Positions 647 to 23,500 of a stretch of DNA of 25,923 nucleotides are shown piece by piece; position 1 is the stretch's first letter; each line of letters starts with the position of its first letter. A program made the position numbers and the translations under genes. Under the pieces are notes generated by a model. That model ran no database searches and was not told the origin of the DNA. It was given only the letters and a program-made list of their open reading frames with translations. The stretch is from a virus: IMG/VR virus record IMGVR_UViG_3300030104_004480, positions 1-25,923 of that record; one strand, given 5' to 3'.

Positions 647-3600
647 TTATGCAAGTGCAATTACTCTAAGATTTCTCACTCTAGGTGGTTGAGATGAATT
701 TGTTCCTGTTCCTACTATCTTAATACTAAAGTATTTAAAGGTAGCAAGATTATCTATGGTAAATTCATAATCATTATACACCACTTCATCTGCAAGGTAA
801 GCTATGACATCAGTTTTAGATAAAGATTTATCTGGAAGACCACTGTTTTTTGCAGGATCTATGATTTGTCCAGTAGATAATAAATTATCATGTCCTGGAA
901 AAGCCTGATAAACTAAATCATCATTTGGATTCTCTGAAATAGCATAGAATGCTCTTACATCACTGGTGACATTAATATGTGCTTCCATATGAATCTTAAT
1001 TCCACTTGCTCCAGATTCTAGAGTAATTGGTTTGGATGCATATACAAATGCGTTAGGATCATCTTGTATTGTGTTGATTCTATTATCTGTTGTATAATCT
1101 GTTATGGGTTGATTTAACCTATTGGAAGTTAAAATAACAGCCATCCTATCTAAATCAATCACAGGAGAGAGTGTATTTTGTAATGAAGATAAAGTCAAAT
1201 TTAAAGTAAATGATTTATTATCAGGAAGATTAGGTAAAGATGTGGTTTCATTAATTCTAGAAGCAATCATTCTAGGACTAGACATATAATTATCACCTAC
1301 AAGAGTAATACTTTCAAATCCTTTATCTACAAAAGGAGATTCTGATCCATCTACACTGGTGGATGTAACAGTTCTAACTTGACCTGTTACAGTGGTTCCT
1401 GTTGGTGTTATATTTTGAACCATAGGAGTTATAATATCAAATGGTATATTTTCAGTAGATAAAATATTATCAGAACCAGTAGATTTAGTTTGATTAAACT
1501 TAAGTTTAGGTAAACTAGTTCCAGTAGATCTATCAACACCATTAGAAGACATATCCACTTTAATATTATAGAAATCTAATCCTCTAGGATCAGTAACAGT
1601 GGCATCTGCTAAATTATGATTAGTATTAATTCTTCTTAAGGAAACACCATTTAATTCATACTTACGAACAAAATCATTTGCATCATGAGTTAATGTGGGA
1701 GTGGAATCAACTCCTCTAGTTACTCCAGTTAAGGTATTAGCAGTTACTCCACTATATGAGAGTATTTCTGATCCAACCTTAATAAATCCTAAGTTTGTAG
1801 AACCAATACCAACATTTTCAAATTCAGCAAAATTTGTTGCATCATCTAATACAATAGATCCTGTGGAAGTAGAAGAATATTCTGCAGCTAATTGAGTGGC
1901 AGGAGCATCAGTATTAACTCCATCAATAGTTACTGTATTCTGAGATGAATACATTCCATGGTTCTTTTGATTAACTTTTATATGAAGTCCATCACTAGTA
2001 ACTGCTGGAGTCCCTGATAAGAATACATTTCCCCCAGCTGCACCATTAAGATCTGTAGCAGCAGCTCCTGCAATGTATTGGATTGTTTTTCCAATACCAG
2101 TTGCAAATTCCCCTTGAACATTATCAAGAACAAATTCATTGATCCCTGTTATAGAGGCTATGGAGAATTGAATACCTGATCCTAAAGAAGTTAATCCAAC
2201 AGTAGAAACTCCAATCACATCACCTACAGAATAACCACTACCACCACTAGCAACAGTTGCAGCAACTGCTACTCCATTGGTTATGGTCATATTCAATGTT
2301 CCATCTCTACCACTTCCAGTCTGAGTGACCATGGGAACAAAATTATATGTTGTGCTACCAGAGGAAGGTGTGTATCCTACACCAGCATTAGTAATAGTTA
2401 AATTACCAGTTGCTGTTCCTCCAGAACCAACATATCTTCCAGTAGCATTGCTTCCTTGTTGAGAAATTAAATTACCAATGGCTACAGCACTGTCTGATAT
2501 TGTTGTGTTGAACCCTATTCTTATTTTATTTGATTTAATTTCAAAAGAATCTTTGAGTAAAGGTGAAACATCATCAGAGAATGTAACTAAAGGAGGATTT
2601 ACGAAATTAATAGTTCCAGTTGGTTCTATGAATACTGCTCTATAAAGAGTAAATTTAAGATCTTCATATTGACTTGGATTCCAAGTTTCTCCATTTTGAG
2701 ATTTAAATAAAGATCCTAATGTAGGTTGAACTCCAACAACTATTTGCTCAGCTTCTGGTCTATCCTTTGATTGAACATCAGTCTCTCCCATTCTAGAAAT
2801 CCAAGCAGTATATTCACTACTTGTAGATAAAAGAACTATAGAATAAGATTTTCCACCTGGAAGATATACTGGAGATGGGAATCTAACTTGAGTAACAGCA
2901 GTGGCATCTGAAGATATATTAACATTTTCTGGTTCTAATACTACCTCACTAAAAGGAATTATTTCTGTGGTAGGAAGACCTGCTTTCATAGTTCTTAATT
3001 GAACAGTTACAGGCAATGATTCATCTTTAGTTCCAAAGAATAAATCTACTTTAGTAACAAAAATACCATCTGTTTCTGCTACAAAGAAAGATTGAGCTAA
3101 AGGATCTTGTTGACCCATTCCACAAGGATCATCTAATTCACTATAACCACCAGCTTCTACACCAGTAAATGATGATATTAGTGCAGAAGATTCAGCAATT
3201 GCAGCTGCACCTGCCTCACTTGATTCAAAAGCAGCAACTGCTTCTTCATTATTAGCAAATTCAATATGCTCCACCATTCTAGCTTGAACAGCTTCTGGAG
3301 AAGCATCAGATCCTAACTCAATAGCAATAGCAGTGGTCCAATATAAAGCAGCACCTTCATCTAAAGCAGAATCACTCCCATTTACTTCAATATATGCTGC
3401 AGCTATTGGATCTACAACAGCAGGGAAAGTATCTTCAAAATCAGATACACTCATCTCAGCTTCCCCAGCTGCAACTGCCTCTGCAGTTCCTACCACTGTC
3501 TCAGACATATCTTTAGAACCACCTGCCTGATACTCTGGAGGTAGTCCTACAAATACTTCTAAAATTTCTTTAATATGAGGAACTGTTTCTCCAGTGTCAG

Positions 3601-6600
3601 GGACTATATATTCTTTAGGTGGGTTATCTTCATCAATATCAATAACAGGAGTAGTGTCTATAACTTCTTCATCAATAGGGTCAGTTTCAATATCTGGGAT
3701 AATATCTATTGTTGGTTGTCTAGTGTCTACTATTCTTGAGGATGATGTTGAAGTTGTGCCTCCTGTTAATGATTTACTTTCAACTCTTGTTATAATATCA
3801 GTATGGATATTTTTTACACTAATAATAGTAGATTGAAGAGTTTCAATATCTCCAGATGATTCAAATATTTCTGTAGCATCTGTGGTAACAAGTCCCTCAT
3901 TTTGAGCATTAAGTGCACTACTTGTAAGTCTGAATACCTTTTTACCCACATCAAATTTTGGTGTGGTTATATCATTAGGATTAGGAATAAAGAAAGATCC
4001 AAGTAAGTTTCCTAAATTATCACTCTTAAGTCTTACATTAGAAACAGTAGCTTGAGCATTAGATGTTTGTCCTACTAATCTAAGATTTTTTTCAATAAAT
4101 CCAAAGAAAGTATTATCTGATTTAGTTGATAAAGTATCTAAATCTACATTCAGAAGAACAGATGTTGAAGAATATAATTCTGGGACATTAACAGTGGTAG
4201 AAGCACCAGTTGAATCAGAAGGTTCTAGTGTAGATTGATCAAGTGGTAGGTTTGTTCCTACATCAGGAGTAATTGTATCTATTATGGGTCTTGAAAGAGT
4301 TAATCTTGCATCTTGTTGTTCTAAAACTGAAGAACCAAATAGAGAAGTAAATTGATAATATGGATTAGGTCCATATGTTTGAGTTGGAGAATCAATGGGT
4401 CCCCTCTTATGATTTGATTGTGCTACTTTAAATCTAATTAACTCCTTGCCATCAGAATTAGTTCCTACAACAGTTTCACCAATTTCAAAGGTTCCTGTTG
4501 TCATTGAAATTTCAATGAGTTTTGGAATAATATATTTTGCAACATCTTGACCATCAAAAAATGCGTATAACTTGGTAGAAGGTCTTAAAGTTCTAGCATC
4601 AAACTTAATATTTCTAGACCTCATATAAGCAGCTATCTGTGTATTAATGACTTTAGGTCCATCATTAATAGTGCTAAATGTCTCTCTAATAAGTTGCTTA
4701 GAAGCTGTTCTACTAGTGCTTCCAACACGTCTTTTTGCTGTAGATGTAGTTTGTACTAAATTATTACCTTGCCATGATGAACTATTAGAACTAGACATAA
4801 CTTCATATCCTGTCCAAGTTTCACTCCAAGAACCCCAAGTTACTGGACCATAACCAGTTCTTGAATCAAATCCTCCAGCATCTATTTGTTCAGTTGATTC
4901 AGTATAAGTAGTAAGATCTTCATGCTTTGCTTCTAATACAACTTGATCTACCCATACTTCAGATGATGGGAGTAAATCTACAGTTCCTCCATAATAACTT
5001 ACAAGATATGGAGTAACATTTTCTACTCTTGTGGCAAAAGGTTGTTCAACATATACAGTCTCCTGATAATTTAAAGTTAAGCATCTGCCAGTTTTTACAA
5101 TTCCATTTGCACTATTCAAATCTAATTGTAAATCAAGTTCAGTTGTATATGGAGATGGTCTAAGTTCTCCATTTTTAAAATCAATAGAATTTTTTACTAT
5201 GGTAGTTTTTATTTGATTTTCTGTGCTTGAGAAATCATCTACAAAAAATCCAGATTTAAATCTATTCAACCCATCACTATCAGTGATCTGCATATTTAAA
5301 GTTTCATTTTCTAGTAAAGTCAGTGATGTATAAAATTCTAAATTCTCAATTCTTTTTTCAAGTTTATTGATATCACTCATTTGATATCTCTTATATTGAG
5401 CAAGACTAATGCTTGCTTGATTAACATTAAACAAATACGCAGGTAATTTGATAGAGGCAACTTCCAATGCTCCATCAATAGGAACAGGAAATTCTGGAGT
5501 CTCAGCTGGCACTCCTTTTATTAATTGAAAAATTCCATTTTTAGATAGATAAATTTTATCAAATCTAGGTAAAAAGAATGAATAATCTAATAATATAGAA
5601 CCATCAGATGCTAAAATATTTGCAGCTGAATTGCCATCACCATCAAAAGATCTACCTAAAAACTCAAAAGGAGATCTGGAAGTTCCTGAAAAATCAGTAA
5701 CTCTAGGTCTTATATCAATAATATCACTTACTCTAGTATCATTAATTGCAGGTAAATTTGTATAATCAAAATTATCATAAGAATTTACTGTAGTAATATC
5801 TCCAGTGTCTGCTGCAGAGAAGAAAGCAGATTCAAAGATGATGGTTATTTGTTTAGATGGTGCATCAAATCCAGGTTTTCTTATTAGTTTAGCATAATCA
5901 TAAATGGTGCTTCTTTGTCCATCATCATAAACAAATTCATCAGTTATATTATTAGAACCTACAGCGAGAGCATCTACTGTAGCAGTAATACCAGACTCTT
6001 CAAAAGTAACTGTTTCTCCAATCTGAAAACCATAATCATTTAGTAAGGTATAATTGATAGCGCTGTCTGTATTTTTGCTAACATAAATTGCACAGCATTG
6101 ACTAGTATCTCCAACAAATTTTTCCCCAATTAACAAATCACCAGTTCTTGCAGTGTCACTATTAATAGAAGATAAAGTTAAGACTGGTAAATTTGGAGCA
6201 CTAGCATTTGATGATTCATATATTCCATAAACCCTCATCACATCAGGAGTATTTAATGAAATTTCTTCATCTTGAACTCTAGTTCCATAAACTGTGCCAT
6301 GAGTTAGTCCATCATTTAAAGTAGTAGTTCCAATACCAGATTGAGAATTTATAGAATTTGATATTGTTAAAACATTAATCTTTTGTTTTTCTTTAATTTT
6401 TTCTTTTGCCTTTACTTTTCTAAGAGTTGCAATAAGTTTAGCAGGACCAGATCCAGATAAACCACTAATTGTTATTTGAGTAGATCCAGTGTTAAACTCA
6501 AATTTATCTGCAGATAAAGATTCTGTAGTTCCATCAGTTCTTATCAAAACATAATCTTCCTCATCATAAGGTAAAAATGTTTGATTAGCATCGCCACTAC

Positions 6601-8731
6601 TAATAGCACCAGTTGTGTTGCTAGAAATAGTTACATCAAATTGTTTTCTAATTGTTATATGAGAATTTGTTAAATTTACATTAGAAATATTATCTTTAGG
6701 TAACTCTGTATATAAGTTATTGTCTGTAGAAGATTGGAATTGAGAAGTTAATATCTTAAAATTTGATGGATTAATAGTTGTAATAGGAAGACCACCATCA
6801 CATATTCCAGTAACACTAGTAACTCCAGAAATAGTTAAAGAATTTTGTGATACACTTTCAACTCTTGCAAAAGAAACAGTGCTCTTTCCTGGATTTGTAT
6901 ACTCTACAATATTTCCAACAGTAGCAATTCCAACAAAGAATTTACTTGGATTTGTAAAAGTAACTGTTGAAATACCTAAGGAAGCTCCAGAAGTAGTAGC
7001 AATACTAATATTAACTTCCCCTATATTTGATAGTACACTTTGTTTAACATCAGCATTAAATGTGCTGGCAGTGCTTACAGTTCCATTAATAGATTTAACA
7101 TCACTAGTGGTAAAAGCTGTAGATCCCACTGAAATATTACCACTCTCTATTCCATTAAAAATAAATTGTTCCCCAGTGATAAATTTACCTTTAGTATTAT
7201 ATAAAGTAACATCAGTTGAACTAGTTACAGCACTTCTTAAAAATCCAGTGGCTCCACTAGACTTTCCTTTAACATGAGTAGGAACAGCGAGTGTTGCTGG
7301 AGTGTTTAAAGCTATTTTTGTATATGTTTGAATGTCATATAATGCAAGATCCCACTCATTTTCATTAGGATTAGATGAATTATAAGATCCAGATTCTAAT
7401 GCAAAATCATATATACGTGCCAATCCAATTTCATCACCAGCAGCTGTGGTAGATGCAGCCCCTATTCTTTGATCTCTTAAACTTACAGTGTAATCAGTTC
7501 CTATTCCCAAAATAGGAGAACCAGAAACTCTATTTAAAGTAAATGTAGGTCCAGTTACATAATTAATACTTTGACCTTCTAAAAGTTTTGTAGTTCTTGG
7601 TTTATCAAAATCTAAAAAAGTAGGAGTTATAGTTTCTACCTCATATCCTTCAATATAAGCTTTTCCTGGTGTTAATCTATAAGTTCCTAAATCATCAGAG
7701 GGACCATTATTATTATAAGTTAATTGATTTGAATTAAAAATTCCATTATTTCCCTGATTATTATTTAAAGTTTCTCTAGCAGTGAGAGAAAATGGTCTAA
7801 TATAATAATTTCCTGATTCATCAAATGTTCTCTTGGCTAATTCATTACCTAATTCATTATAATCATTTTCTGTGCGCACATAAGCCAAGTTACCATTTCT
7901 AATCTCCATCAAACTTATAAAATTAGATGGTTTTGTATCTCTTATGCTTAATGCTTTTAGTCTTACTTGTATACTTAATCTATCAGCTCCTGGAGCAGTA
8001 TAATTGCTATATCCAGCAGCGTTATCATTTAAAGATTCATCTGAATCAGAGTTTACTATGGTTTCTTTAACTTCTAATCCAATTTGAGCATCAACATTAC
8101 TGACATAGGGACTTATGACAACTGTTTGTTCAGGTACATCTACAAAAAATCCTCTTACAAAATAAATTCCATTAGATAAAACAGCAGCACTTCCAACAGC
8201 TGCAGCACTTATTGTAACAGTTTGAGCAAGTGGTTGACCTGATTGAAAAATTAAATTATTACGAGTGGATATTGCATTACCATCTAATAATAAACTTTCT
8301 CCATCAGAAAATACTTCATTACCTTCACCACCAGTATTTAAATATGAAATAAACAATACATAAAAATTAGTTCTAGTAGGACGTCCAATATATGATTTTA
8401 TTTTAGCTTTAACTCCAGAATTACTACCAACTATGATTTTACCAACTAAATCTGGCAAATATGATTTTACATCTATTCCCTCATTTGATATTTGAATTTT
8501 AACTGAATCATAAGCACCATTAAATCTAACTCCACCCCCAGTAACAGAGGCACCATCCTTAAATATGTGACTACCAAATTTTTCAATCTGACTTTGAAGT
8601 AAAGATTGAATTCCTGTTAATTCACGTGCTTGTACTGGTGTTCCAGGTTTGAATAATATTTTGCAATAACTACTTTTAGAATCAAAATCGTCAAAGTAAG
8701 GAGCGACGTTTAAATTGGTTTCCTGTGGCAT
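647..8731 (-). CDS. Giant DUF4815-type baseplate/tail structural protein (2694 aa)
   Basis: The N-terminus (MPQETNLNVAPYFDDFD, then KPGTPVQARELTGIQSLLQ, QIEKFGSHIFKDGA) is typical of DUF4815 structural proteins of T4-like marine phages. Visible parts: the N-terminal domain (about 1-400); a Ser/Thr-rich beta region with 'IGETV' and 'GKSSG' motifs (about 450-1000); a short coiled coil, INKLEKRIENLEFYTSL, followed by GLNRFKSGFFVDDF (about 1110-1160); an acidic Pro/Asp/Glu/Ile linker (about 1667-1725); an Ala/Glu-rich probably helical insert (about 1740-1860); a conserved domain beginning DPLAQSFFVAETDG (about 1875-2030); two GxGY modules (about 2110-2180); an NHG module and an EILSYSG-RG module (about 2249-2347); and a conserved C-terminus ending RNLRVIALA. 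There is no signal peptide. The ATG follows the gp8 stop by 6 bases. It sits where T4 has gp9/gp10, so a peripheral baseplate or fibre-attachment role is inferred, not shown. Confidence 0.93.
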   Translation of the reverse strand: MPQETNLNVAPYFDDFDSKSSYCKILFKPGTPVQARELTGIQSLLQSQIEKFGSHIFKDGASVTGGGVRFNGAYDSVKIQISNEGIDVKSYLPDLVGKIIVGSNSGVKAKIKSYIGRPTRTNFYVLFISYLNTGGEGNEVFSDGESLLLDGNAISTRNNLIFQSGQPLAQTVTISAAAVGSAAVLSNGIYFVRGFFVDVPEQTVVISPYVSNVDAQIGLEVKETIVNSDSDESLNDNAAGYSNYTAPGADRLSIQVRLKALSIRDTKPSNFISLMEIRNGNLAYVRTENDYNELGNELAKRTFDESGNYYIRPFSLTARETLNNNQGNNGIFNSNQLTYNNNGPSDDLGTYRLTPGKAYIEGYEVETITPTFLDFDKPRTTKLLEGQSINYVTGPTFTLNRVSGSPILGIGTDYTVSLRDQRIGAASTTAAGDEIGLARIYDFALESGSYNSSNPNENEWDLALYDIQTYTKIALNTPATLAVPTHVKGKSSGATGFLRSAVTSSTDVTLYNTKGKFITGEQFIFNGIESGNISVGSTAFTTSDVKSINGTVSTASTFNADVKQSVLSNIGEVNISIATTSGASLGISTVTFTNPSKFFVGIATVGNIVEYTNPGKSTVSFARVESVSQNSLTISGVTSVTGICDGGLPITTINPSNFKILTSQFQSSTDNNLYTELPKDNISNVNLTNSHITIRKQFDVTISSNTTGAISSGDANQTFLPYDEEDYVLIRTDGTTESLSADKFEFNTGSTQITISGLSGSGPAKLIATLRKVKAKEKIKEKQKINVLTISNSINSQSGIGTTTLNDGLTHGTVYGTRVQDEEISLNTPDVMRVYGIYESSNASAPNLPVLTLSSINSDTARTGDLLIGEKFVGDTSQCCAIYVSKNTDSAINYTLLNDYGFQIGETVTFEESGITATVDALAVGSNNITDEFVYDDGQRSTIYDYAKLIRKPGFDAPSKQITIIFESAFFSAADTGDITTVNSYDNFDYTNLPAINDTRVSDIIDIRPRVTDFSGTSRSPFEFLGRSFDGDGNSAANILASDGSILLDYSFFLPRFDKIYLSKNGIFQLIKGVPAETPEFPVPIDGALEVASIKLPAYLFNVNQASISLAQYKRYQMSDINKLEKRIENLEFYTSLTLLENETLNMQITDSDGLNRFKSGFFVDDFSSTENQIKTTIVKNSIDFKNGELRPSPYTTELDLQLDLNSANGIVKTGRCLTLNYQETVYVEQPFATRVENVTPYLVSYYGGTVDLLPSSEVWVDQVVLEAKHEDLTTYTESTEQIDAGGFDSRTGYGPVTWGSWSETWTGYEVMSSSNSSSWQGNNLVQTTSTAKRRVGSTSRTASKQLIRETFSTINDGPKVINTQIAAYMRSRNIKFDARTLRPSTKLYAFFDGQDVAKYIIPKLIEISMTTGTFEIGETVVGTNSDGKELIRFKVAQSNHKRGPIDSPTQTYGPNPYYQFTSLFGSSVLEQQDARLTLSRPIIDTITPDVGTNLPLDQSTLEPSDSTGASTTVNVPELYSSTSVLLNVDLDTLSTKSDNTFFGFIEKNLRLVGQTSNAQATVSNVRLKSDNLGNLLGSFFIPNPNDITTPKFDVGKKVFRLTSSALNAQNEGLVTTDATEIFESSGDIETLQSTIISVKNIHTDIITRVESKSLTGGTTSTSSSRIVDTRQPTIDIIPDIETDPIDEEVIDTTPVIDIDEDNPPKEYIVPDTGETVPHIKEILEVFVGLPPEYQAGGSKDMSETVVGTAEAVAAGEAEMSVSDFEDTFPAVVDPIAAAYIEVNGSDSALDEGAALYWTTAIAIELGSDASPEAVQARMVEHIEFANNEEAVAAFESSEAGAAAIAESSALISSFTGVEAGGYSELDDPCGMGQQDPLAQSFFVAETDGIFVTKVDLFFGTKDESLPVTVQLRTMKAGLPTTEIIPFSEVVLEPENVNISSDATAVTQVRFPSPVYLPGGKSYSIVLLSTSSEYTAWISRMGETDVQSKDRPEAEQIVVGVQPTLGSLFKSQNGETWNPSQYEDLKFTLYRAVFIEPTGTINFVNPPLVTFSDDVSPLLKDSFEIKSNKIRIGFNTTISDSAVAIGNLISQQGSNATGRYVGSGGTATGNLTITNAGVGYTPSSGSTTYNFVPMVTQTGSGRDGTLNMTITNGVAVAATVASGGSGYSVGDVIGVSTVGLTSLGSGIQFSIASITGINEFVLDNVQGEFATGIGKTIQYIAGAAATDLNGAAGGNVFLSGTPAVTSDGLHIKVNQKNHGMYSSQNTVTIDGVNTDAPATQLAAEYSSTSTGSIVLDDATNFAEFENVGIGSTNLGFIKVGSEILSYSGVTANTLTGVTRGVDSTPTLTHDANDFVRKYELNGVSLRRINTNHNLADATVTDPRGLDFYNIKVDMSSNGVDRSTGTSLPKLKFNQTKSTGSDNILSTENIPFDIITPMVQNITPTGTTVTGQVRTVTSTSVDGSESPFVDKGFESITLVGDNYMSSPRMIASRINETTSLPNLPDNKSFTLNLTLSSLQNTLSPVIDLDRMAVILTSNRLNQPITDYTTDNRINTIQDDPNAFVYASKPITLESGASGIKIHMEAHINVTSDVRAFYAISENPNDDLVYQAFPGHDNLLSTGQIIDPAKNSGLPDKSLSKTDVIAYLADEVVYNDYEFTIDNLATFKYFSIKIVGTGTNSSQPPRVRNLRVIALA
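3150..3730 (-). other. Acidic linker plus Ala/Glu-rich helical insert within the 2694-aa protein
   Basis: Roughly residues 1667-1725 are an acidic low-complexity linker (IDIIPDIETDPIDEEVIDTT and onward). Residues about 1740-1860 are rich in Ala, Glu and Ser (for example TAEAVAAGEAEMSVSDFEDT and EAVAAFESSEAGAAAIAESS). The rest of the protein is Ser/Thr/Asn/Ile-rich and beta-like. The composition change is sharp at both ends, and the conserved DPLAQSFFV domain begins straight after it. Boundaries are approximate. Confidence 0.65.
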
Positions 8732-8737
8732 GATTCT

Positions 8738-10306
8738 TTAGAATTGCAAAATGACTTTGATATCTTCTCTTTGGTTAGCAGACCTAGTGATGGAAGGTCT
8801 ATTATCCACATAAATTATATTTCCAGAGTACTTTTTAACTTCAGGATTAGAAACTCCTTGAATAAAACTCTGTCCCAGAAAATATTTTCTATTATTTATT
8901 ACAGTACTTATACCAGGACTTCCTGTAGTTCCAAAATTAGTATCTATTCCTAAAGTACTTTCATTACTAGCAATATTAACATTTCCTCCACTAGTAGGAT
9001 TTGCTGTAAATCTATTAAGGGCAAATCCATAAGTAGGGTCTGTTCTCAAAGTTCCATCACTATTAAATCCAACTAAACTTTTGTCTTGCCAATACTTTAA
9101 AACACCAGTGGTTTGATCATATGATGCCACTCTACCAACAGCAGTAGATCCTACACCAATGGTTTGAGTAAATTCACTATCTAAATCAAAAGTAGCTGTG
9201 GTATAACCAGACCCAACTAATTTTAAAGCATAAAGGGCACTAGCTTTAGAAAGTTCAAGATTTGAAGTAGAATCAAAAGCCTCTGGATTCTCAACAATTC
9301 CTATTCTAGCTATTTGATTTCCTGTAATAAAATCAGGATTTTCAGCATCATTTTCAATTCTAGAGTAAACTAAAACGTTACTTGCACCTAATTCTCTATA
9401 AATATCTGCTCCATGACCACCTTGAGGTGGAATTATAACATTAAATATAGGATCTGTGGTTCCATCAGGAACTCCACCAGATTTTAGATCTAAAGTTCCA
9501 TAAGTATAACCAGTTCCACCTTTAGAAATATCTACAGATTCTACTTTTGCATCATTATTAATAACTATGGTTGCTTCTGCACCACTACCATCCCCATTAA
9601 TAGGAACTCCTGTATAGGTTCTATTAGCAGTTCCTATACCAGATCCTCTATTGACAATAGTGACAATTTTTAATTGACCACTGCTAGAGGCATTATCTCT
9701 TACTGAAGCATTATCTGTGCCTGTCTCCCAATCTTCTGGCACTGGAATAAAGTTAGTAGAATCAAATTTAGTAATTTCAGTTGGTTTAATTGTATAAAGA
9801 TATTTCCAAATATATCCATCACCACTATTACCTGCTGCTTTAGGTTCAAGGTCTGTAAAACCAGGTTGATCTAAAGATGGTCTACCTGAAACATTTTCTG
9901 GATTTGTTCCATTTTGAAGACAAATATAAACTTTAAAATCTTCATTAATAACATAATATTTGGATGAATATAAACTAGTTGCTCCAGATGGTTTTGCTAT
10001 ATTGGTTCTACTAATATCCCCTCTATACATGTCATAAGTTACACCTGAAGTCCAAGTATACTTACTACACATTCTACGTATGTCAGAAGTTGTAACCTTC
10101 TTCAACGCTACCATAGTATCCCAATAATCATTCTCCTGATCAAAACTATCTTTTGGAGAAGGAGGATTAGCATTCCATGTGGAGGAATAACTAGTAGCAT
10201 TAGGTAAACCAACAAAAGAATAATAAGAATTAACTGAAGAAGTTGCAGTAGAAACAAAATTCTTCGCATTCAATATTCTAAGTTGATCAGTTATAATGGC
10301 AGCCAT
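8738..10306 (-). CDS. 8: Baseplate wedge subunit gp8, enlarged
   Basis: This 522-residue protein matches T4 gp8 (334 residues) at both ends. The N-terminal part has YWDTMVALKKVTTSDIRRM, comparable to T4's 'MWTHMMGTVKVLPSMLDAVIPR'. It is followed by GDGYIWKYLYTIKPTEI (T4 GDGYVWEYLFEIPPDV) and FIPVPEDW. The C-terminus SGNIIYVDNRPSITRSANQ, REDIKVILQF matches T4's 'SGEMIYMENRPPIIMAMDQTEEINILFTF'. gp8 forms a dimer in the outer baseplate wedge and contacts gp7, gp10 and gp6. The extra length lies between the conserved ends: GxGY/GxGI beta modules near residues 209, 253-280 and 357-377, of the type also present in the neighbouring giants. The ATG lies 30 bases after the previous stop, in an AT-rich spacer with a late-promoter-like AATAAATA and no Shine-Dalgarno. 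The family call is firm; the insertion is direct observation. Confidence 0.94.
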   Translation of the reverse strand: MAAIITDQLRILNAKNFVSTATSSVNSYYSFVGLPNATSYSSTWNANPPSPKDSFDQENDYWDTMVALKKVTTSDIRRMCSKYTWTSGVTYDMYRGDISRTNIAKPSGATSLYSSKYYVINEDFKVYICLQNGTNPENVSGRPSLDQPGFTDLEPKAAGNSGDGYIWKYLYTIKPTEITKFDSTNFIPVPEDWETGTDNASVRDNASSSGQLKIVTIVNRGSGIGTANRTYTGVPINGDGSGAEATIVINNDAKVESVDISKGGTGYTYGTLDLKSGGVPDGTTDPIFNVIIPPQGGHGADIYRELGASNVLVYSRIENDAENPDFITGNQIARIGIVENPEAFDSTSNLELSKASALYALKLVGSGYTTATFDLDSEFTQTIGVGSTAVGRVASYDQTTGVLKYWQDKSLVGFNSDGTLRTDPTYGFALNRFTANPTSGGNVNIASNESTLGIDTNFGTTGSPGISTVINNRKYFLGQSFIQGVSNPEVKKYSGNIIYVDNRPSITRSANQREDIKVILQF

Positions 10307-10322
10307 TTTGTTATTTTTTAGT

Positions 10323-10330
10323 TATTTATT
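10323..10330 (-). promoter_or_regulatory. Late-promoter-like element AATAAATA upstream of gp8
   Basis: The minus strand reads AATAAATA, one base from TATAAATA, followed by C. It lies in the 30-base spacer between the 395-residue gene and gp8. A start site about six bases downstream would leave a leader of about 11 bases, short but possible. It shares the octamer TAAATAAC with the elements at 39-46 and 11546-11553. AT-rich sequence makes chance occurrence possible. Confidence 0.4.
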
Positions 10331-10336
10331 GAAGAA

Positions 10337-11524: not shown

Positions 11525-11545
11525 CTTGTCTTTACAATTTAGAGT

Positions 11546-11553
11546 TATTTAGT
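11546..11553 (-). promoter_or_regulatory. Late-promoter-like element ACTAAATA upstream of the 395-aa gene
   Basis: The minus strand reads ACTAAATA followed by AC, overlapping the TAA stop of the 4036-residue gene. Its TAAATA core matches the T4 late consensus, with two mismatches at the first two positions. A start site around base 11540 would give a leader of about 15 bases. It shares TAAATAAC with the two other proposed elements and is the weakest of the three against the T4 consensus. Confidence 0.35.
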
Positions 11554-14500
11554 CATATTCAATAGATCTCAAAGGATTGAATCTTTGAATGTAAGCTGAG
11601 GTAGATATTCCACCAGTTCCACCATCACCATAGAACTTAAATGATCTAGGTTCAGCTCTTACACCTAATCCAACTTTACCAAAACTATAATCACCAAAGA
11701 AAGGTTGATGATATATATCTCCACTGAAAGTAACACCTAGACCAGCAGAATCAAATTTAGTTGAAGTGGAATCAAATTTTAATATGGATGAATCAAATGA
11801 ATCAGATGTAAATTTATCTATATTTACAAATACCCTTTTAACAAAAGTAGTTGCTGTTCCTACAGTTGATAAACCAATAATAGTATTAGCAATACTTACA
11901 GTATTAACATCAACTACCTGATAAACATTATCAACAAATTGGGTGCATATTCCTGTAGTAGTTATACCATTAGCATTAAACGACTTCAGTGAAGTATTGG
12001 CATTTCCAACATTGGAATTATTTACAATAAAGAAATCATTAACAGTTAAAGAACTTAAAGTAACTGCAGTTCCTGTTATGGTAGAATCTCTCAAAGGAGA
12101 ATTTAAAGGAATATGCATATCAAAAATTATTCTATTTCTACCACCAACAGTGGTTGTACCAAATCCAACTACTGTTCCAAAATCTCCAGAATAAGTAACA
12201 GAAGTAACCTTTTCAACAGCACTAGATGCTTGAGGAGGTCCTATAAGAACTGCAGGTGGAGAAGCAGTAGTATAACCACTTCCAACTGAATCTAAAGTAA
12301 TAGATTCTAATATATCACTATCCATTGCAGCAGTAGCAGTTGCTCTTTGAGTAGTTCCAAATCCAACAGGTTGTTCTATAGAAACATCAGGAGTGCCTGT
12401 ATATCCCATACCAGAATTAGAAATTACAAATGAACTAATAGTTCCAAATCCAGAAACTATTGCAGTGGCTGCTGCCCCTATCAAATCATCCTGAGATATA
12501 ATTTGTATAGTCCCTTGACCATCATAATTTTCAAAAGAATTATCAAAGAAAGTCCTAACACTCTCTACATAAGCCACTGTAGAACTCGTTGATACTGGTG
12601 AAATTAAATTACTGGTAGGGAAGATTAAAGGTTCATAATGTGGTCTATCTTTAGTAACTTCATTACCATCTATGACTTTATCAACAAGTTGTCTTGACCA
12701 TGTAATAGATCTTTCATAAGTTTCATCAGTATTAATACCAACAGAATCATATGGATTAGTAGTAGCATTATCAGCTGCATTTACAGCAGTTACTATTCTA
12801 GGACCTTGATCAAATTCAAAATTATCATCATGCAATCTAACTTCATCACCTTTTTTAACAGTTTCTAAAACATCAACAAGAGATGTATCAACTGAGCCAG
12901 TTCCTCTATAGAATAAAATCTTAGAGGTATCTCCTGCTTTTGGTGGTTCTTTAAATGTAAGATAACTACCACCTTTAAATTCATATCCAATTTGAGGAAC
13001 CTGAAGAATATCATTAATGAACACTAGAAGTGTGTATTCTACATCAATAGGAGATCCTACTTCAGTATTGATTGTTTGTTGCTCATCATCAATTTTTAAA
13101 GCATATGTAAGAGTTTGTCCATCAAATAAAGAATCTAAGGGATCAAAGACTTGGAAATCACCAACAGTCCATGCAGCAAAAGTATCACTAACAGTTTCTT
13201 GAATAGTAAGTTCAAATTGTCTAGATGGACTAAAATCAGCAGTGGTTGGAATACCCACACTACCACCAACACCCACTGTTAGAACTGCTGAATCACCATA
13301 ACCAAATCCTTCTTTAATTATTTGGAAGTCAATAACACTAGAACCTTGTCCAACAACTATATTTGCAGTTGCTTCTGATCCCACTCCACTAGAAGATGAA
13401 GTATAGAACAATCGCATATTATCATATGATAATGGTTCATCTATGACAACTAATGGAGGATTGGTTGATGTATATCCAGTGCCAGGATTGGTAATTGCAA
13501 CACTTACAATATTACCATTATTAATTGCAGCAGTACCAATAAATTCTATAGCTGGTGTTCCAGTGCTTAATGTTTGAACTCCTACATTAACTATAGATTG
13601 AATTCCTGGTCTATAACCAGAACCACTATTACCAATGCTAATAGAACTAATAGTTCCCAATCCAGAAACAATAGCAGTACCACCTGCAGAAACTAATGGT
13701 TGATATCCAAAACCCTCAGTAGATCCAACAGAGACTATAACACCACCCAAAGGAACATTTGCTGTGTTTGGATCAGATGCAACAGAACTTGTAGAACCTG
13801 TAAACTGAATGGTAGTGACACCAACTGCATCTGTATCTTCAATAAGAGTGTAGTTTCCAGTAACAGTTACCTCATCTCCAGTTCTCTTAGGAGACTGGAA
13901 TATCTGATTAACCAATATGATAGCGTTACTGGTAGAGAAACCTGCTACATCCTCTCCATCTTGTTTAAGAGTGAACTCTGTAGTAAGACCTGTAAAATTA
14001 GCAGAAATATCATCAAAGATATAATTTTGAGAATAAGGTTCAACAGTTGTATCTTTAATTCCAGATCTCATGAAAGATCTTCCATTAAATGTTGAGTGAG
14101 TTGCTATTCCAACAAAGTCTATTTCATCTGGTTCATTACTAGAAGTTGAAAGAGGAACTAATCCTGCAGGTGCAGCATAGAAGTTAATAGTGCTGTCAAC
14201 AATATTATAATTACCTTCAATTTTAGTAACTAAAGATCCAGAAGTATGTGATGCTAATCCTGATCCCATCCAAGGTCTAGATACTAAGAGAATATTTGTA
14301 TCACCTACTCCAACAGAGTTTACCTTCATAATCTCATCATCTATCTTCAACAAATCTCCACCACTAATAGAAGTGATACCAGAAATTTTTATCTTATCAG
14401 TGCTACTATCTGCTACTGCAGATAGAACTGTGGTGACTGATGTTGCAACTATGGGTTGTTGAATTACATTATCAAGACTAATGATACATCTTGAATTTTG

Positions 14501-17500
14501 TTTTTTAGATGTAAGTGAATGAGAAGTACCTATACCAACAGAAGTAATATCTAAATGTACAGGAACAGTTTTTAATGCATTTTGTGCAGTGGATGCTAAT
14601 TTTAATGTGGAGTCATTAATTTTAATAGCAAATACTTTATCTGGGAGTTTATCTGTGCTTCCATATCCAGATATAGTTTGAGTGCTAATACCAATAGCAG
14701 AAGTGGTTCCTGCTCCCAAGTGCCTATAAGTTAACTCCTCACCACTAACAAAGAAATGATTTGGAATTTTAATAGTATCTCTGAGAGGACTGACTACAGT
14801 AGATGCTCCTCCTACAAAATTTCTCTTAAATATTGGATTCTGTCTATGAGAAAGTTCAAAAGCTAGAGCTATATCAGCGCCAGTACCACTATAAGTTCCT
14901 TCACCAGAATCAATAGTAGCATTTTCTAAATCAATTTGAACTTCTGTATTGTCATCATCCTTCACTCTAATTGCATTTTGATATACTTGAACTACAACAT
15001 TTTTACTTGCTATTGGAGTAAATGTTATATTAGTATTAGTCCCATCCACTTCAGCATCAAATGTTCCAATTGGTGCAGATGTTTCTACATTTCCATATTC
15101 AGTAATATATGATGTTGTGCCATCATCTATTACAATCAGCTCAGATATTGAATGATGACTATCAGTGGTATTAGTGACAACTGCAAAACAATAAGCAGCT
15201 GAATATAATTGATTATCATATGTTGCTACAGTAGTAGCAGATGGAGATCCACTTGAAGATATAGAAGTTCTTCTAGAATCAAATGATCCTGTTTGCAATG
15301 CAGTTGTACCAATTCCAGTAACATCATTATCTGCTACATTAATTGATAATGTGTTGGTGGTAAATGTGGTTGCAGTGGATACATTAGGATGTAAATTAAT
15401 ACTAATACGAGATCCTGCAATAGAAGCACTATAAGTACCAAGTCCAGGAGTTCCAGATCCACTACCCAAATTGTCTGATGTTAATTGTCCATATTCCACT
15501 AAATCAACTTCTGTTCCATTATGAACTATGTTTAATTCTTCATATTCAAAATAAGACTTATCACTAGATGCATATGAAACTAAAACCTTTGCTGCTCTAT
15601 AAGTAGAAGCAAATGATACTATTGAATGAGATGTTGAAATTCCTAATGGTATGTCTGTGGTTCCACTTACAATTGAACAAACTGAACCAAGAGCAGTAGA
15701 AGCTATTCCAGCTGCGCTATCTGAAATATTATATGCAATAGATGAAACATCATAATTATTAACTTTAAATTTCTTGGGGAAGAATAATAATCTTCCATTC
15801 TCACCACTAATATCTAAATCAAAAGATCCCAATTCTGAGGTAAATTCTCCACCATCTGTATGAGTTGCTACAGTGCCATACTGGTTTAAGAGCATATTAC
15901 CCTTATTATTATGAATCAAAGAAACCAGCATAACCTGTCTTTCTTTAGTAAATCTTCTATCACGAACAAAAGTAAGATATTTTCTAGATCTTGTATTTTG
16001 AAGTTCAAAGTTATCAACAGCAGAAAACTTGTCTATTCTCTCAGTATTATTAAATGATGGACTTATATCATCAAAGTTTAATACTCTATTACCTATTGAA
16101 GAAGTAAAGTCTTTAATTCTTCTAGATTCAAAGATTACTTGATCAGAAACTACTTTATTGTCTATTCTTAATGTTTTTTCTCTAGCAAGATCAAAATCAA
16201 ATACAGTATTCATATCCATGATGGATATCAAATCTGTGATAACATCAAATTTACTTTCTGTTTGTGAGGTGCTTACTCCAACACTACATTCATCTCTTAT
16301 AACTAAATCACTAAATTTTTTAAATCCTGCAGTGTGATTTAAAGATGATACTGCATTTTCCCATTTTTCAAGTGGAACTTCAGATTTAATTGCATAAGAG
16401 AAGTATTGATAATAATCACTATCAAATAATCTTTGATTATCAGTATTTAAAAATCCACTATCATCTTGCCAACCTTCCTTAACTATGGCAGAAGACTCTA
16501 CATCATATAAAGATCTATGTGCCACAACTTGAGTTATAGTCCCTTTTACACCAGAAGATTTTCCAGTAACAATATCATCTACTTCATAATCTTGAGGTGA
16601 TGATATTTTCAAAAATCCATTTGTTTCATTGAAAGATTGAAGAACTCCCACAGCTTTATGTGAAACTATGGTCTCTCCAATATCAAATTTATTTCCTTTC
16701 AAAGAAATATCAAAAATTGGAAAATCTTCTTCATTAATAACTCTTCCAGCAGAAGATGCAGGTTTAAATGTTCCAGCAATTTTTCCTTCAGGAATTATAC
16801 CAGATAAACTGTAACTTATAGATCCAGCAGCACCACCTATGTTGGCATCTGTTGATAAAATCTCAAATAATCTAAAATCATAACTTGCAGAGTTATAACC
16901 AATTCCTGTAGTTCCAACTCCAACACTAACTCCCTCAATCATTACTTTTTTACCAGTTTCAAATGGGAAATTTGAAAGACTCGTAAATGTAGCACCTAAA
17001 GTTACTGTTACTAATTTTGTCCCAAAGTCAAAGTCCATTCCAGAAATTTTAATTCCATTAGAATTGCTAATTGGACGAATTATTGGCGTAACATTGTTTA
17101 AAGATTTGGTATTCCTTAAAATAGTAACTTCCTCATCTCCTAGTTCGTAATCTAAATCAAGATCACTAACCACTTTTTGAGTTGTTCCATCTAAAACAAC
17201 TAATCCAGGAGATTCTAGATAATTATTTCCAGATGAAGTAATACCAATTCTTTTAAGAGATTCTAAAGCATCAACCTTTACTAATTGAGGAATTTGAGAC
17301 TCTGGCTTAAGACTTCTATCTGCTGAGTAGTCAAATCCAATATCTTGAATATCAACATCAAGTATTCTTCCAATGTTAGAACCAAAAAGTTCTAATATAG
17401 CACCACTACCAAAATCAGATCTTATACTACTAACTCCTGGAAGAGATCTATATCCATTTCCCCCATTTTTCAAGTTAACTGAATTTATAGGTCCAAATGC

Positions 17501-20500
17501 ATTTCTACTAAAAGTAAAATAAGAAAAATCACCATCAGTTTCATTATATTGAAGTTTTGGAGGGGATTTTCTAGCAGAAAAACTAAAGGTTGTAGTTCCA
17601 ACACCAACCACAGGAAATAAAGAATTTAAAGGATTAATTTCTTGATCTAAAGTATTGGCATTTTCAATATTTAAATTATCTGTAATAATTTCTTTCTTAA
17701 CTACTTTATTTAAAGTATCATTTACTGGTATTAAATTATAATATAATACTTTAGAAATTTCTTCTACATTTTTAATAGTTACATTTGCAGTACTATCAAT
17801 ACCAATCTTACCAGATGAAGTTAAATTAAAAGTATCAGTTAATGATGAAGAATAAAATCTATCAGTTAATAATTTATCATTGTAAATAGCAAAATCAAAT
17901 GCACTGTATAAAACTCCATTATCACTAAATGCTAAACTAGAATCAGAGAGATCAAACTTAATTTGTTGATTTTTTTGTGTAAATATTTTAGGATTAACTG
18001 AAGAAATAACACCATCTTGTGCATCAGTAATATTAATTGTTTCAGGAATAATTTTTACAGATTGATAATGTTGATTGCATAATTTAATTTTGTCTTTATC
18101 TACAACTGCGACATAATAAATCCCATTATCAACTAATCCACCTGGTGAAGTTGTAGCAGTAGAAATAACTTTTTGACCACTGATATAACCATGATCAGAT
18201 ATGGTGATAGTATTATCTGTTGTGTTGATACCTGCTTTAATATAAGCTCTAGGATTAATAACTAGTCTTCTATTAAAATCATTATATGCCACATTTATAG
18301 TGGTAGTTACTCCACTCAAAACAGTAAGATTTATAGGATCAAGATCCTTAAGACCATGAGTAGAGGCAGTTGATACTGTTGCTAAAGTTCTATTTGCTGT
18401 GCCAGTTAAAACATTAGTAAAGTTTGTTTTAAAACTATGATTTAGTCCAGTCCCAATTCCAGTAAAAAATAAAGTGCTAATATTAGTGGTGCTATTAATA
18501 CCTGTTAATGATCCAGTAGATCCTAATCCAACTCTAGCAGTGGCTATACCAATTAAATCAGAGTTAACTGGTGCAGCAAATAAAGTTTGTTCATTAGAGA
18601 GGGTAAAGGACATAATACCATCAGTTGAAACCCCTAAAGCAGTTCCATCATTAGTCTTATAAGTTAACTGATCTCCTAATTTTAAACCATGTCCTTTAAA
18701 ATAAATGGATTTAGTAGGAATAAATATTTCGCTTATTCCAGTTCCTGGATTGGAGAACACCACAGTAGATCCAATACCAACTCCTGATAAAGTTCCTAAC
18801 CCTACAGAATCTGCAGGATTGAAATATAATTCAGTGTTATATCTAAGACTATTGCCAATATTGTCAGTGTTATTAATAAATTTAAAGTTTCTTGGTTTAG
18901 ATTCTAACTTAGAAGTTGCAGTATGAGCAGATCCTATGGTAGAATTGTGATTTCTTAAAACTCTAAGTCTTTTGCCATCTAAATCTACATTTAATACTTT
19001 TACTTGCTCAGTGCCTATACCTAGAACGTCATTAGGTCTAACTGAGAATATATCTCCAATTTGACCACCAACATTAAAGAAAGTAACAAGACCAGTAGCG
19101 CCAGCAGAGCTTATTCCAACATCTAAATTAAATCTACTTGTAGTTACTCCAACACTAAAGATTTTATTATTAGTCAATCCACTAGTGCTCAATCCAGTAA
19201 TGGTAAGGAATTCTAATAAAAATAAATTATGAGGAGATGTAGTATATCCTACAATTTCTCCTGGTCCTCCATGAGGAACAAATTCTATATTTTCAAAAGT
19301 AGTATTGGATACACTGATATCAGTTATAGTTTTTCCTTTAATTGACTCTACTTTAGCCTCAACTCCAGTTCCACTAGTTCCAGAATTATCAAATTCTATA
19401 ATATCATTTATTTTAAAATTATTACCTCCTGTTTTTATTCCTACATCAATCACTGATCCAATGGATGTTGAAGTTATTGAAGTTTTTTGTTTTCTAATAG
19501 CGTTTGGATCTACTAAAAATTCATAAACAGATTTATTAAATAAGAAATTATAAACACTAGTATTTCTTATAAATCCAGTGTTATTAATATCAAAATCATC
19601 TTGATTAGAATTAAAAGCAAAATTGTAATCAATAGATTTGTGCTTGTATGAATTACCTATAAAATATGGGAATTGTGGTTGTCTGAAATTTTTAAATGCT
19701 CCTTCAGAATCTCTAACATCTGGATTAATGGTAGCAAAATAAGCATATACTCCATTAGGATAGTCTGGAGTTTTACAAAATCTACCATTATGTCTATCTA
19801 AATCATTACCCTCTTGGTGCACATAATCTTCAACAAAGAATCCTTTTCCATATATTTCTTCACCTGCAGATGTAAGTGGATTAGGTCTCTCTGATGATAT
19901 TGAGACAGAGTATCCAGATGTGAGAATTTTTACTTGCCCTCCACCATTATCAGAAAAACCATATGGTCCATAAATTGGAGATCCATCATATGACCACCCA
20001 ATAATTGGAGAATGATTTATTGAATCTTGTTCAATATCATTCTCTAAAAGTAAATCTGGAACAAAAACTTCTTTATCACCTAAATCTTTTCTAACATTAA
20101 CAGATTGTCTTAATTTTCTAGGAGAATATAAGTGAGAATATTCTAAACCAGATTCATCTCTAGATCCTTCACTTACCACTCCATCATCAGATGTAATCTG
20201 ATTATTTTGTATCAATCTTTCTACACTATTAATAGTCCATGTTTTTGGTTTAGAGAAAAACTTAGCACCATCTCCATTTGGAGTAACTGTGATACTTGTG
20301 TTTGAAGAACTATATCCAATTCCAGCATGAGATACTACTACAGAATCTATGGTTCCTGATTTTAATATTGGCACTAAAACAACTCCTCTTCCAATTCCAC
20401 TTACAGTCAATTCTGGAGGAGAATTATATCCTGAACCTTCATTCTTAATTACTACTGATTTTATTTTTCCATCATGAGATACTATGGGAGTTAATTGAGC

Positions 20501-23500
20501 ATCTTTTCCTTTATTTAAAGTAAATTCTGGTTGTCTGTTATAATTAATAATTTCAGATGATCCATATCCAACACCACCATATGGAACATAGACTGATTTT
20601 ATAGATCCCCTAGCAATGGGTCTTAATTTTGCATTAAAATTCTGACCACTAAATGTAGAGACTCCTATATTATTATCAACTGTTATGGTTATAGGAGGAT
20701 AATTAAATTCATGAATTCCAGTGCCACCAGAAAATAAATCAACATATTCTTTATTTTTCAGATAGAAATTTTGAGCTGTAGATCCTATTCCAACTTCAGA
20801 CAATCTAAAGGAACCACCATCTACCTTAGAAACAAAATAATCAGTTTGAGTAGAGAGTCCAGTAATGGGAGTTGTAGACTTAGTATCGTATCTTATTTTA
20901 TCCCCATCAATATATCCATGATCTTTAATATTGATTGTATTAAGAGCAGTATTAATTCCAGATGAAGTGACTGCAGTTAATCTATTTCTATATCCAATTC
21001 CAGAACTAGCAACGCTAACAGAACTAATAATTCTTTTTTGAGAGGCGCAATCAAGTTGATGAATACCTGCACCAAATCCAGTTAAATTTATGGGTGAAAT
21101 CCCATCTATGGAATCCTCAAAATTTTTATGTAAAGTTACTGTAGTTGCACTTTTAACACAACAAAAATATGGAGCGCCTGTTGTTAATCCAGCTACAGCA
21201 GTTTGACCCTCTGGATTATAAATTATGAGTTCTCCATCTCTAAATTTATGAAATGTAGAGAATCCTATAATATTATCAGTGGTGTTTACTAATCCACCAA
21301 GTTCTGTGGAATCAAATTCTATAGAATGATCTATTAACTTTAAATTAGCGTGTGCAATGCAACCCCTACCATTTCCACCAGTTATTTTTAAAGTTGGAGT
21401 AGTTAGATAATCAAATCCACCATCAACTACATCAATTCTTTCTATATTTCCTTCTACCTCACAAAGAGCAGAACATCCAACTCCAGTTTTGTCAGAAAGA
21501 GTAAGAATAGGAGGATTTATTATATCGTAATTTTTTCCTTCACTGGTAACATCTATTTCAGATAATGAACCATAATGAATAATATCATCTGATTTATAAT
21601 TAGTAATTTCAACTCCATTTACCAATATGCCAATTTTTCCAGATTTAGTTGTTTCTGGAATACTACTAATTGGTTCTTTAATTTTTCTTAGTAGTTTTTG
21701 AGATTCTATGCTTTTATTAGCAAAATTTGCCAATTTAAATTTATTATTTGTTACGCTTCCACTAAATGTTACAAAAATATTATTATCTACATTAGAAGAA
21801 CTTCTAGCAATTTTAAAAATATTCTCATCTATTTTTTTAACAAAATATTCTTCTTCATCTAAATCTAATTTATTTTCACCCTCTCCAGCTGCATATCTTA
21901 TTTTTTCACCATTAATTAATCCATGATTGGGAATATTAATATCAGTGCTTTCAGAAAATGAACCAGTAAATGTAAGATCTGTTTGTCTAATATCTAAACC
22001 TTCATCAAGATAATCTGGTATAGAGGAGGAAGCAATATAAACACAAAGATCATCTTCATCATTGTCTATATAAGAATTTTGAACATTTGTGGTAAATATA
22101 TTTGCATTAGGATAATTAGATAGATTAGCTTTAGATATTAATCTTTTAATCTTATAATCTACATTGGCAAATAGTTCTCCTGCACCTTTTACTAAAATTT
22201 CCTTAGAACTAACTAAACCTATAATTCTACATTCTACATCATTAATAAGAGCTCTGTCTCCTACAATAAAACTATGAGGATCAAAGAGATTTAATTTATA
22301 GGTAAAGTTGGAAGAATCTACAAGATCAAAAGATGCTACATCGTAAGTTATAGAAACATTAGGTTGCAAAGATTTAGTAATTAAATCTGCAGAATTAATT
22401 CCCAACCCTCTAGGTTCTATAATATCTCCAATTTCATTAAAATTACCAATATTATTTTCTAAATTTAAATTACCTAAAACGCCAGTCACTCTAACTTTTA
22501 TTTTATTGGATGTTCCTAATCCAGAAAATCCATAAGCAAAAGCATCCAATTTAATATCTTCTTTAGCATCAAGATTTACATCAATTCCACTACAACCAAA
22601 GAATTGATTTAATGATTTTGACTTATACTCTATAGTGGTTGATTTAGTAACTAAAGTTCCAGTAGTTCCAAAACCAACAGTGGAATCTACTGTTAGTACA
22701 GTAGATCCTACAGAAACAGAGTCAACTAGTTTGGTATTAGGATGAATAGAAAAAATATCAGACAATCTATCACTTTTTTTATCAAAATCTAAACTTAATC
22801 TATAAAAAGATTTTCCATCTCTTACTATTTCTTCTACATCACTTACAGCTGCAGTGGCTTGAGATAATCCAGCAATAGGATCTTGAAATAGGTTTCTATT
22901 AACAAGATCTGATGGATCTCCTTCAATAGCCTCTACTACTATTTTTCTGGATACCTTATAATCTGCATTTGAAGGAATAAAGAGAAAATCTCTTGGTTTT
23001 ATTACATCTACATCTTCTCCATATAACGCACGAAACAAAATTTCAAAAGATTGATCAGTTCCTTTAGATGAATAGAAATCTTTTGATTGTTTTATGAATA
23101 ATCTTTTATCAATATCATCAGAAAGAGCTCTTTCTTCAAAACCAGGTGTAATTTGATTTTTTACTTTTTTAAAAAACTCTTGTAAAAATCTAATACTTAA
23201 ATTATCAACTGTTGCCCCTGAAGAATGGGTGGAAATGCCTGATTGTGAAAATACAAGGCAATCTGGCTTATTAAGACTTCTATATGAGGTAATTCCACTA
23301 AATCCTCTAGAACAACCAGTGAAAGAATTGGTTGTAATTCCAGTATATGTAATAATTTCATTATCAATCTGAATTAATCCATAAGTATCAGGAAATCCAG
23401 TAGTAGATTTAACATTAATGATATTATTTGCTATTCCAACATTATCAGACAGAGTTGTAGAATTTACAAGGTCTGTTAATTCATCAATTTTTATATACTT

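Follow-up and report, generated by a model that had tools for sequence, protein, structure and literature searches.

Phages carry promiscuous Ig-like domains (Fraser et al. 2006, as cited in PMC9230969), and sheath proteins are described in PMC9230969 as bearing extra Ig-like domains. Two further accessory domains are reported to protrude from tail proteins: domain I of the T4 tail sheath protein gp18, a six-stranded barrel plus helix inserted in a conserved tail subunit, lies outside the gp18–gp18 contacts and docks the retracted tail fibres and the baseplate (as described in PMC3004832), whereas D3* of Dpo31, a trimeric tailspike of the marine podovirus Carin-1 (PDB 28lx, 8ck1), is an inserted beta domain which its authors are cited as calling Ig-like and which is said to stand beside a glycan-degrading domain. 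T4-like myoviruses are themselves reported to be ubiquitous in the sea (PMC3037559). Here we examine a 25.9-kb virus record (IMG/VR IMGVR_UViG_3300030104_004480, positions 1 to 25,923; the whole stretch analysed, hereafter the window), which by gene order and database matches is a T4-like cyanophage baseplate cluster. A short unit with a GxGY turn recurs in three of its proteins, all encoded on the minus strand: a giant gp7-type baseplate wedge protein of 4036 residues (11549–23659; phrog_2885 'baseplate wedge subunit', 3450 bits), the baseplate wedge protein gp8 (522 residues; 8738–10306) and a DUF4815 virion protein (2694 residues; 647–8731; PF16075, phrog_358). The units are homologous across these proteins and tend to occur in pairs, and we think it rather probable that the paired beta domain is a promiscuous accessory domain for docking or weak adhesion.

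Conservation and relatedness of the GxGY units

The preliminary description had quoted GxGY motifs in gp7, gp8 and the DUF4815 protein, and each was found where it had been placed, on the minus strand. Against 500 residue shuffles, gp7 contained 24 matches to the core pattern (shuffle mean 4.6, maximum 15) and 20 to the bare G-x-G/N/D-Y/F pattern (mean 7.5), the latter equalling the shuffle maximum of 20, while the core counts of gp8 (3; mean 0.5, maximum 4) and of the DUF4815 protein (5; mean 2.2, maximum 10) are not decisive. By counting, only gp7 exceeds shuffles, clearly only with the longer pattern, and counting was rejected as proof for the other two proteins, whose counts fall inside the shuffle range. 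A hidden Markov model (HMM) built from 15 gp7 copies, one of them misaligned, found gp8 at residues 247–268 (13.4 bits) and failed on the DUF4815 protein (0.3 bits). Of the shuffled or reversed controls, 1206 in number, one reached 14.5 bits over the whole sequence. Single sequences are therefore insufficient; the HMM check proposed earlier linked gp8 and failed for DUF4815 with the 15-copy model, and family profiles link all three.

Conservation was scored as G-x-x-Y/F within three residues of a site in the rows of family alignments of gp8 (the window plus 62 of 65 sequences chosen for diversity from 309; 63 rows), of the N-terminal part of gp7 (the window plus 36 of 53 loci; 37 rows) and of DUF4815 (38 rows). 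In gp8, the motif at residue 264 is conserved in 63/63 rows and is the only site with G-x-x-Y/F in at least 90% of rows (sites 10–509 scanned), and a degenerate unit at residue 221, absent from the preliminary list, is kept in 54/63. The two to three copies first proposed for gp8 are accordingly reduced: that at 264 stands, and that at 365 (KLVGSGYTTATFDL), kept in 5/63 rows, was rejected as a module and is probably a chance match. Both proposed copies in the DUF4815 protein are borne out (residue 2117 in 37/38 rows, 2164 in 38/38). The gp7 sites 748, 887, 1029, 1075 and 1113 are each kept in 37/37 rows and are the only ones at 90% or above in the N-terminal part, with site 708 kept in 31/36. 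This family evidence settles the question, and the shared module is confirmed as real from sequence.

Most units of the window are carried by gp7, where the roughly 15 first suggested become about 12–15 (12 by HMM, up to 15 by eye). Pair 1 (anchor residues 708 and 748; 21332–21583) is seen by motif, HMM, gp7 alignment and model, and is followed by a single unit at 887 (20957–21043), fully conserved with a weak HMM match, and by three tandem units at 1029, 1075 and 1113 (20231–20623), the last two detected by HMM and the first by conservation and model. A weak single unit at 1412 (19346–19468; GNNF, of the GD variety) and three units at 2067, 2108 and 2144 (17144–17503) were found by motif and HMM, 2108 being weak and recognised mainly by eye. 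Units 3346, 3393 and 3451 (13220–13669) were all recovered in one HMM scan and only the first two in another; the pair at 3750 and 3793 (12191–12457) was found by HMM. The gp8 pair occupies residues 205–292 (9431–9694; anchors 221 and 264), and the DUF4815 pair, supported by family profiles and conservation, lies at 2117–2419 of the window (anchor residues 2117 and 2164).

The claim that one module is present in three otherwise unrelated virion proteins is supported by this conservation together with profile–profile comparison (hhalign) of five pair profiles of 88–104 residues, for which nine comparisons were counted, that of gp7 pairs 2 and 3 being left uncounted as it overlaps. The gp8 profile matched gp7 profiles at 95.7% and 97.4% and the DUF4815 profile at 96.5%, pair profiles within gp7 matched each other at 97.3% and 97.4%, and DUF4815 matched gp7 more weakly (55% and 73%); the links across proteins span 56–79 columns. 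All 35 clean control comparisons gave 1.2% or less. The remaining five of the 40 used a control stretch that includes a portion of DUF4815 unit 1 and were set aside; in one of these the stretch necessarily overlaps the query (98.7%), and the values for the other four were 0.9–6.7%.

An HMM of copies from the neck protein gp14 alone, taken from two phages, matched gp7 of S-SM2 at 48 bits, of P-TIM68 at 34 and of the window at 25, as well as window gp8 at 12.5; for the 1734 controls, reversed or shuffled, the best score listed was 9.5. The isolated gp7 segment 1013–1145 reached 16 PHROGs: its own and, among others, those of gp8 (1e-8), gp14 (7e-7), hub-lysozyme (1e-6) and tail fibres. Similarly, the isolated gp8 segment matched eight, including gp14 (2.6e-4) and gp7 (0.006), and the isolated DUF4815 segment one, a virion family not its own (2.8e-7). 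A profile of DUF4815 rows only, searched in 14 whole records, found, besides DUF4815 itself, a gp7-type open-reading frame (ORF; 8e-5) and S-CAM3 gp18 (0.009), and reached gp8 ORFs weakly (0.0015, 0.009 and 0.048); in the PDB it gave a single, meaningless match (E 9.8). An iterated HMM grown from profile A1 (gp7 and gp14 rows only) performed well on gp7 but no better on window gp8, DUF4815 or T4 gp18, and was not used as evidence.

Pairing, predicted fold and the match to gp18 domain I

In the gp8 model (AlphaFold2; mean predicted local distance difference test (pLDDT) 83.8, predicted template modelling score 0.76), residues 205–292 form six strands, three per unit; within each unit the GxGY turn follows the first strand, and two further strands come after it. 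Units 708, 748, 1029, 1075 and 1113 have the same strand order in the gp7 model (mean pLDDT 84.5, most module blocks >90), unit 887 being less clear. Structure prediction, which the preliminary description had proposed as a check for single copies, thus favours, in these protein models, a three-strand order per unit common to both proteins. Pairing was counted in 18 proteins chosen as unit carriers rather than at random, with a lenient domain threshold (E ≤1 for 100 sequences) and units less than 70 residues apart joined: of 31 runs with at least two units, 29 contain an even number (2, 4 or 6), one contains five and one seven. The pair is thus mostly the usual unit and not an absolute one, because singletons and triples occur beside the even runs.

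The gp8 pair matched domain I of T4 gp18, model residues 213–292 superposing on residues 99–186 of 3foa_B with Z 6.0 (2.7 Å, 73 aligned residues, 14% identity; VIA-align). The same pair gave Z 6.0 with 3j2m and 5.2 with a Klebsiella phage sheath, and among the matches listed for this stretch non-sheath chains reached at most Z 2.7. VIA-align is the one source of this fold match; T4 gp18 is missing from the best 50 Foldseek PDB matches of the gp8 model, where T4 gp8 is present. In comparison with 3foa domain I, the same fold is found for the gp8 pair only, in a predicted model and at a middling Z.

Sequence searches point the same way. Profile A2, six rows of the GY-x-GD variety of which two are S-CAM3 gp18, had matched tail sheath chains in the PDB (6 of 9 matches, best E 0.26) before the structure match was obtained; in the whole T4 genome its sole match at E up to 1 is gp18 domain I (E 4.5e-4), and the same place in gp18 is matched in three T4 relatives. 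As two rows are S-CAM3 gp18, the A2–T4 link is partly a gp18-to-gp18 one. The DUF4815 pair profile matched T4 domain I at 52% over 19 columns. A shared gp18 domain I fold is therefore suggested by the predicted gp8 model, with sequence as support.

Domain I and the GxGY pair have in common six strands and the motif, which reads GSNYAVGD in T4 and is kept in the 15 sheath rows compared. They differ in the extra helix of domain I, and in its second half, where T4 has a GKNY that is absent in the relatives compared. In the T4 genome, the domain is found only in gp18, whereas in the window it is found in gp7, gp8 and the DUF4815 protein and in no sheath protein. The T4 substitutions G106S, S175F and A178V are reported to inhibit fibre retraction (PMC3004832). 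In the T4 gp18 record, counted from Met as residue 1, residues 107, 176 and 179 are G, S and A, and 106 and 178 are P and L; the published numbering therefore appears to omit the Met, and we infer that G106 is the glycine with which GSNY starts, at the GxGY position of T4 gp18.

Other parts of the gp7 model were also examined. No Foldseek PDB match of this model reached E ≤0.001, the matches being long poor alignments and a Uba1-like domain, and in a viral model library gp7-type proteins came top and a gp14 neck protein ranked 33rd, with low whole-chain TM-scores. Between its GxGY units gp7 has beta domains of another kind, marked by HGxxxGDxIxY-type motifs: that at residues 776–873 (21041–21334) matches a ubiquitin E1 domain (Uba1/UBA6, Z up to 8.9), and that at residues 891–988 (20696–20989) matches the endosialidases of phi92 and K1F (Z 7.4 and 6.7, 24–27% identity). 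Similar motifs are visible by eye elsewhere in gp7. Residues 1201–1313 (19721–20059) contain a YHYH domain (PF14240, 72 bits), here on a baseplate protein, and a ThiF-like NCBIfam match at residues 1842–1967 (17759–18136; 19.5 bits against a cutoff of 159) is probably due to chance.

Carriers in other phages and the gene neighbourhood

Profile A1 matched in 10 of 10 phage records, with 114 matches at E ≤0.01, which included gp8 of Pseudomonas phage pf16 (6e-10), outside the cyanophages, and gp8 of five cyanophages (2.4e-4 to 8.4e-3). The matches that were looked up, which leaves out a few ORFs such as those of 486 residues in Bellamy and 471 residues in P-SSM2, are gp7-type proteins, gp14, gp8, gp5, S-CAM3 gp18, a tail fibre and virion structural proteins; every one whose annotation gives a function is a virion gene, the carriers of 617 residues in P-SSM2 and 896 residues in Melnitz-1 being annotated without one. 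S-SSM7 and S-CAM3 carry units on gp5, and the P-SSM2 protein at the gp5 position is annotated only as predicted. S-CAM3 gp18 has four units, and S-CAM1 sheath proteins hold the same stretch at 53–55% identity. The preliminary description spoke of baseplate genes, which is correct as far as it goes and too narrow, as neck, hub and sheath proteins carry the module too: GxGY units occur on many non-homologous virion proteins (gp5, gp7, gp8, gp14, gp18, DUF4815 and a tail fibre).

Three carriers stand out in their architecture. In S-SSM7 gp5 (L094, 467–3493), a tail lysozyme/hub protein, the GxGY pair is directly followed by a Big_5 Ig-like domain. The S-RIM8 baseplate cluster encodes a protein of 6395 residues (L097, 431–19618) with 24 detected GxGY units. 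Outside the cyanophages, a 511-residue protein of a T4-like phage (L415, 302–1837, minus strand) has a GxGY pair with a Hoc-like N-terminus on one side and a GDSL hydrolase on the other; it is a Hoc-like head-decoration protein in which a capsid decoration carries an enzyme. Bacterial carriers were sought with one S-RIM8 segment, which reaches close relatives only, and comprise two Planctomycetaceae proteins (one with autotransporter-type repeats, the other not scanned), a fibre-like Pinibacter protein whose adjoining gene has a sub-threshold tail-collar match, and a Marinilabiliaceae protein with sub-threshold metalloprotease matches; the A1 profile search of bacteria gave no usable stretch.

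The large genes of the window all lie on the minus strand, and Pfam and PHROG matches give the set gp6, giant gp7, a gp9/10-N-type fibre protein, gp8 and the DUF4815 protein, together with a small protein whose matching family carries the annotation L-shaped-fibre assembly. The gp6 baseplate wedge (23696–25783) has no motif match, and neither has the gp9/10-N-type fibre connector (10337–11524; PF07880). Window gp8 is recognised by both family and fold (PF09215, the T4 gp8 family, 49.9 bits against a cutoff of 25; model against T4 gp8 1n7z, Z 19.7), and by gp8 the nearest named relative is Synechococcus phage S-SM2 (65%). By position the giant corresponds to gp7 of S-SM2, so annotated there, and to a P-TIM68 gene labelled 'baseplate wedge subunit'; P-TIM68 shares the window gene order, with its fibre connector likewise lying between giant and gp8.

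Possible functions and origin of the paired domain

In the reading that we favour, a single GxGY unit of about 40 residues is half a domain, with one strand before the turn and two after it, and two tandem units would usually build one six-stranded beta domain with the gp18 domain I fold, shared by the carriers other than gp8. The domain is an accessory part, in one to many copies, of conserved tail-machine subunits of T4-like marine phages, namely gp7, gp8, DUF4815 and gp14, and in some phages gp5 and gp18. It would face outward in the cyanophage virion and work like the promiscuous Ig-like domains, the many copies per virion giving multivalent weak contacts which may either dock virion parts, such as folded tail fibres, or hold the host surface. 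Because mainly the turn and core positions of the units are conserved and the rest is variable, we favour a general accessory knob whose ligand would differ by protein. Like the Ig-like domains of phages, it is a small beta domain that has been added to many virion proteins of unrelated kinds, and the two stand side by side in the sequence of S-SSM7 gp5, where the pair sits just ahead of Big_5; in contrast to them, it is built of two similar halves, in fixed slots, with no recent shuffling seen. No Ig-like Pfam family is listed for gp7, gp8 or the DUF4815 protein (E ≤1), or for the pair segments.

Several results weigh against this reading. A Z of 6.0 is only middling by the tool's own scale, and T4 gp18 is not among the 50 matches listed by VIA-align for the gp7 model, a list filled by another domain and hence uninformative. 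Against T4 domain I, the pair profiles of gp8 and gp7 reach no more than 3–7%, the DUF4815-only profile misses T4 gp18, and for the three window pair segments no Pfam family, PF22639 (Gp18_dom_I) included, is listed at E ≤10, with filters that drop most matches above 0.1; T4 gp18 itself scores 126 bits with PF22639. Pair 1 of gp7 links to gp7 only, being unlinked to gp8 (13.9%) and DUF4815 (1.6%). With the gp14 HMM, gp8 of P-TIM68 (6.5 bits) and S-SM2 (−1.8) and DUF4815 of P-TIM68 (8.9) and the window (−1.7) fall below the best control, and A1 gave no gp8 match in 4 of the 10 records (P-SSM2, S-RIM8, Melnitz-1 and Cr30) and matched the DUF4815-position gene in none. Strict pairing is broken by 12 singletons among the 18 proteins, at least three of which have a neighbour visible only by eye or in a family alignment, and by two runs of three units seen by eye in window gp7.

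The pair may instead be a genuine carbohydrate-binding module, a glycan-binding fold being one of two roles, beside a common interface, that the preliminary description considered, each copy binding host glycan and the many copies providing avidity, which we regard as possible and on balance unlikely. The marine tailspike Dpo31, a depolymerase, has two motif copies (445–460 and 487–506) 42 residues apart in D3*, a pair stands between the Hoc-like N-terminus and the GDSL hydrolase of the 511-residue protein, and among the carriers found in bacteria one has autotransporter-type repeats and another is weakly protease-like. However, Dpo31 matches only weakly (E 0.18 and 1.1), the consensus sequences of A1 and A6, inspected by eye, hold the turn Gly and Tyr and hydrophobic strands with no conserved polar or aromatic patch, and gp18 domain I, the solved relative by fold, is described as binding proteins (PMC3004832). 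Profile A6 in the PDB reached levanase chains at E 0.07–0.08 on 23 columns.

It is similarly doubtful that the units are inert spacers, lengthening or stiffening large tail proteins without a ligand. Such a role would suit the many units between other domains of gp7, the 24 units of the S-RIM8 giant and the conservation of mostly structural residues, but across deep divergence the slots persist, with five sites of gp7 and one of gp8 present in every row, which a plain spacer should scarcely require, and the mutations in T4 gp18 domain I are reported to cause a specific fibre-retraction defect (PMC3004832).

A narrower form of the docking idea, in which the GxGY pair is a general fibre-docking knob of T4-like tails, seems to us quite improbable. 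Knobs on neck gp14, on sheath gp18 and hub gp5 in some phages, on wedge gp7 and gp8 and on DUF4815 would line the tail from neck to baseplate with docking points, where folded fibres rest until a host is met, much as the motif glycine G106 of T4 domain I would be needed for long tail fibre retraction.

Convergence, in which GxGY is merely a frequent tight turn between strands and the copies are non-homologous, is very unlikely. The inconclusive counts of gp8 and DUF4815, the chance match at gp8 365 and the isolation of gp7 pair 1 would fit it; against it stand profile links of 56–79 columns with clean controls, whole-genome matches in virion genes, the 16 PHROGs reached from one isolated segment, and the order of three strands per unit that the gp8 and gp7 models have in common.

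The origin of the units was examined with a tree that holds 103 units, drawn from 17 slots in gp7, gp8 and gp14 (40 columns; DUF4815 units left out). Labelled by slot, it requires 19 changes (least possible 16, shuffle mean 77), and labelled by genome 88; 6 of the 15 listed slots need two changes, several are not one clade, and gp14 slots 2 and 3 show no gain over shuffling. The exchange of copies among gp7, gp8 and DUF4815 by recombination inside the locus, which the preliminary description drew from their presence in three neighbouring genes, is highly improbable as a recent process, since the gp7, gp8 and gp14 units in this tree group by slot and not by genome and orthologous slots are conserved in the 37-, 38- and 63-row alignments. 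As slots hold together and genomes do not, most units look to have been inherited in place and their spread among genes looks old, possibly through ancient duplication or transfer among genes.

Domain I is known to Pfam as Gp18_dom_I (PDB 3foa and 3fo8), and what is new here is an accessory domain, predicted to have that fold, as a widespread, mostly paired module; in the open-access literature we found no paper on this module across gp7, gp8, gp14, gp5 and DUF4815. In the records examined, the very large gp7-type proteins of cyanophages carry annotations of three kinds only: wedge, virion or hypothetical protein. For them, one accessory domain that has a relative of solved fold and an old T4 mutant phenotype would provide a partial parts list, and fibre docking or surface adhesion would be a testable role for these giants. 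Phages would thereby gain a second promiscuous domain besides the Ig-like one, made of two similar halves.

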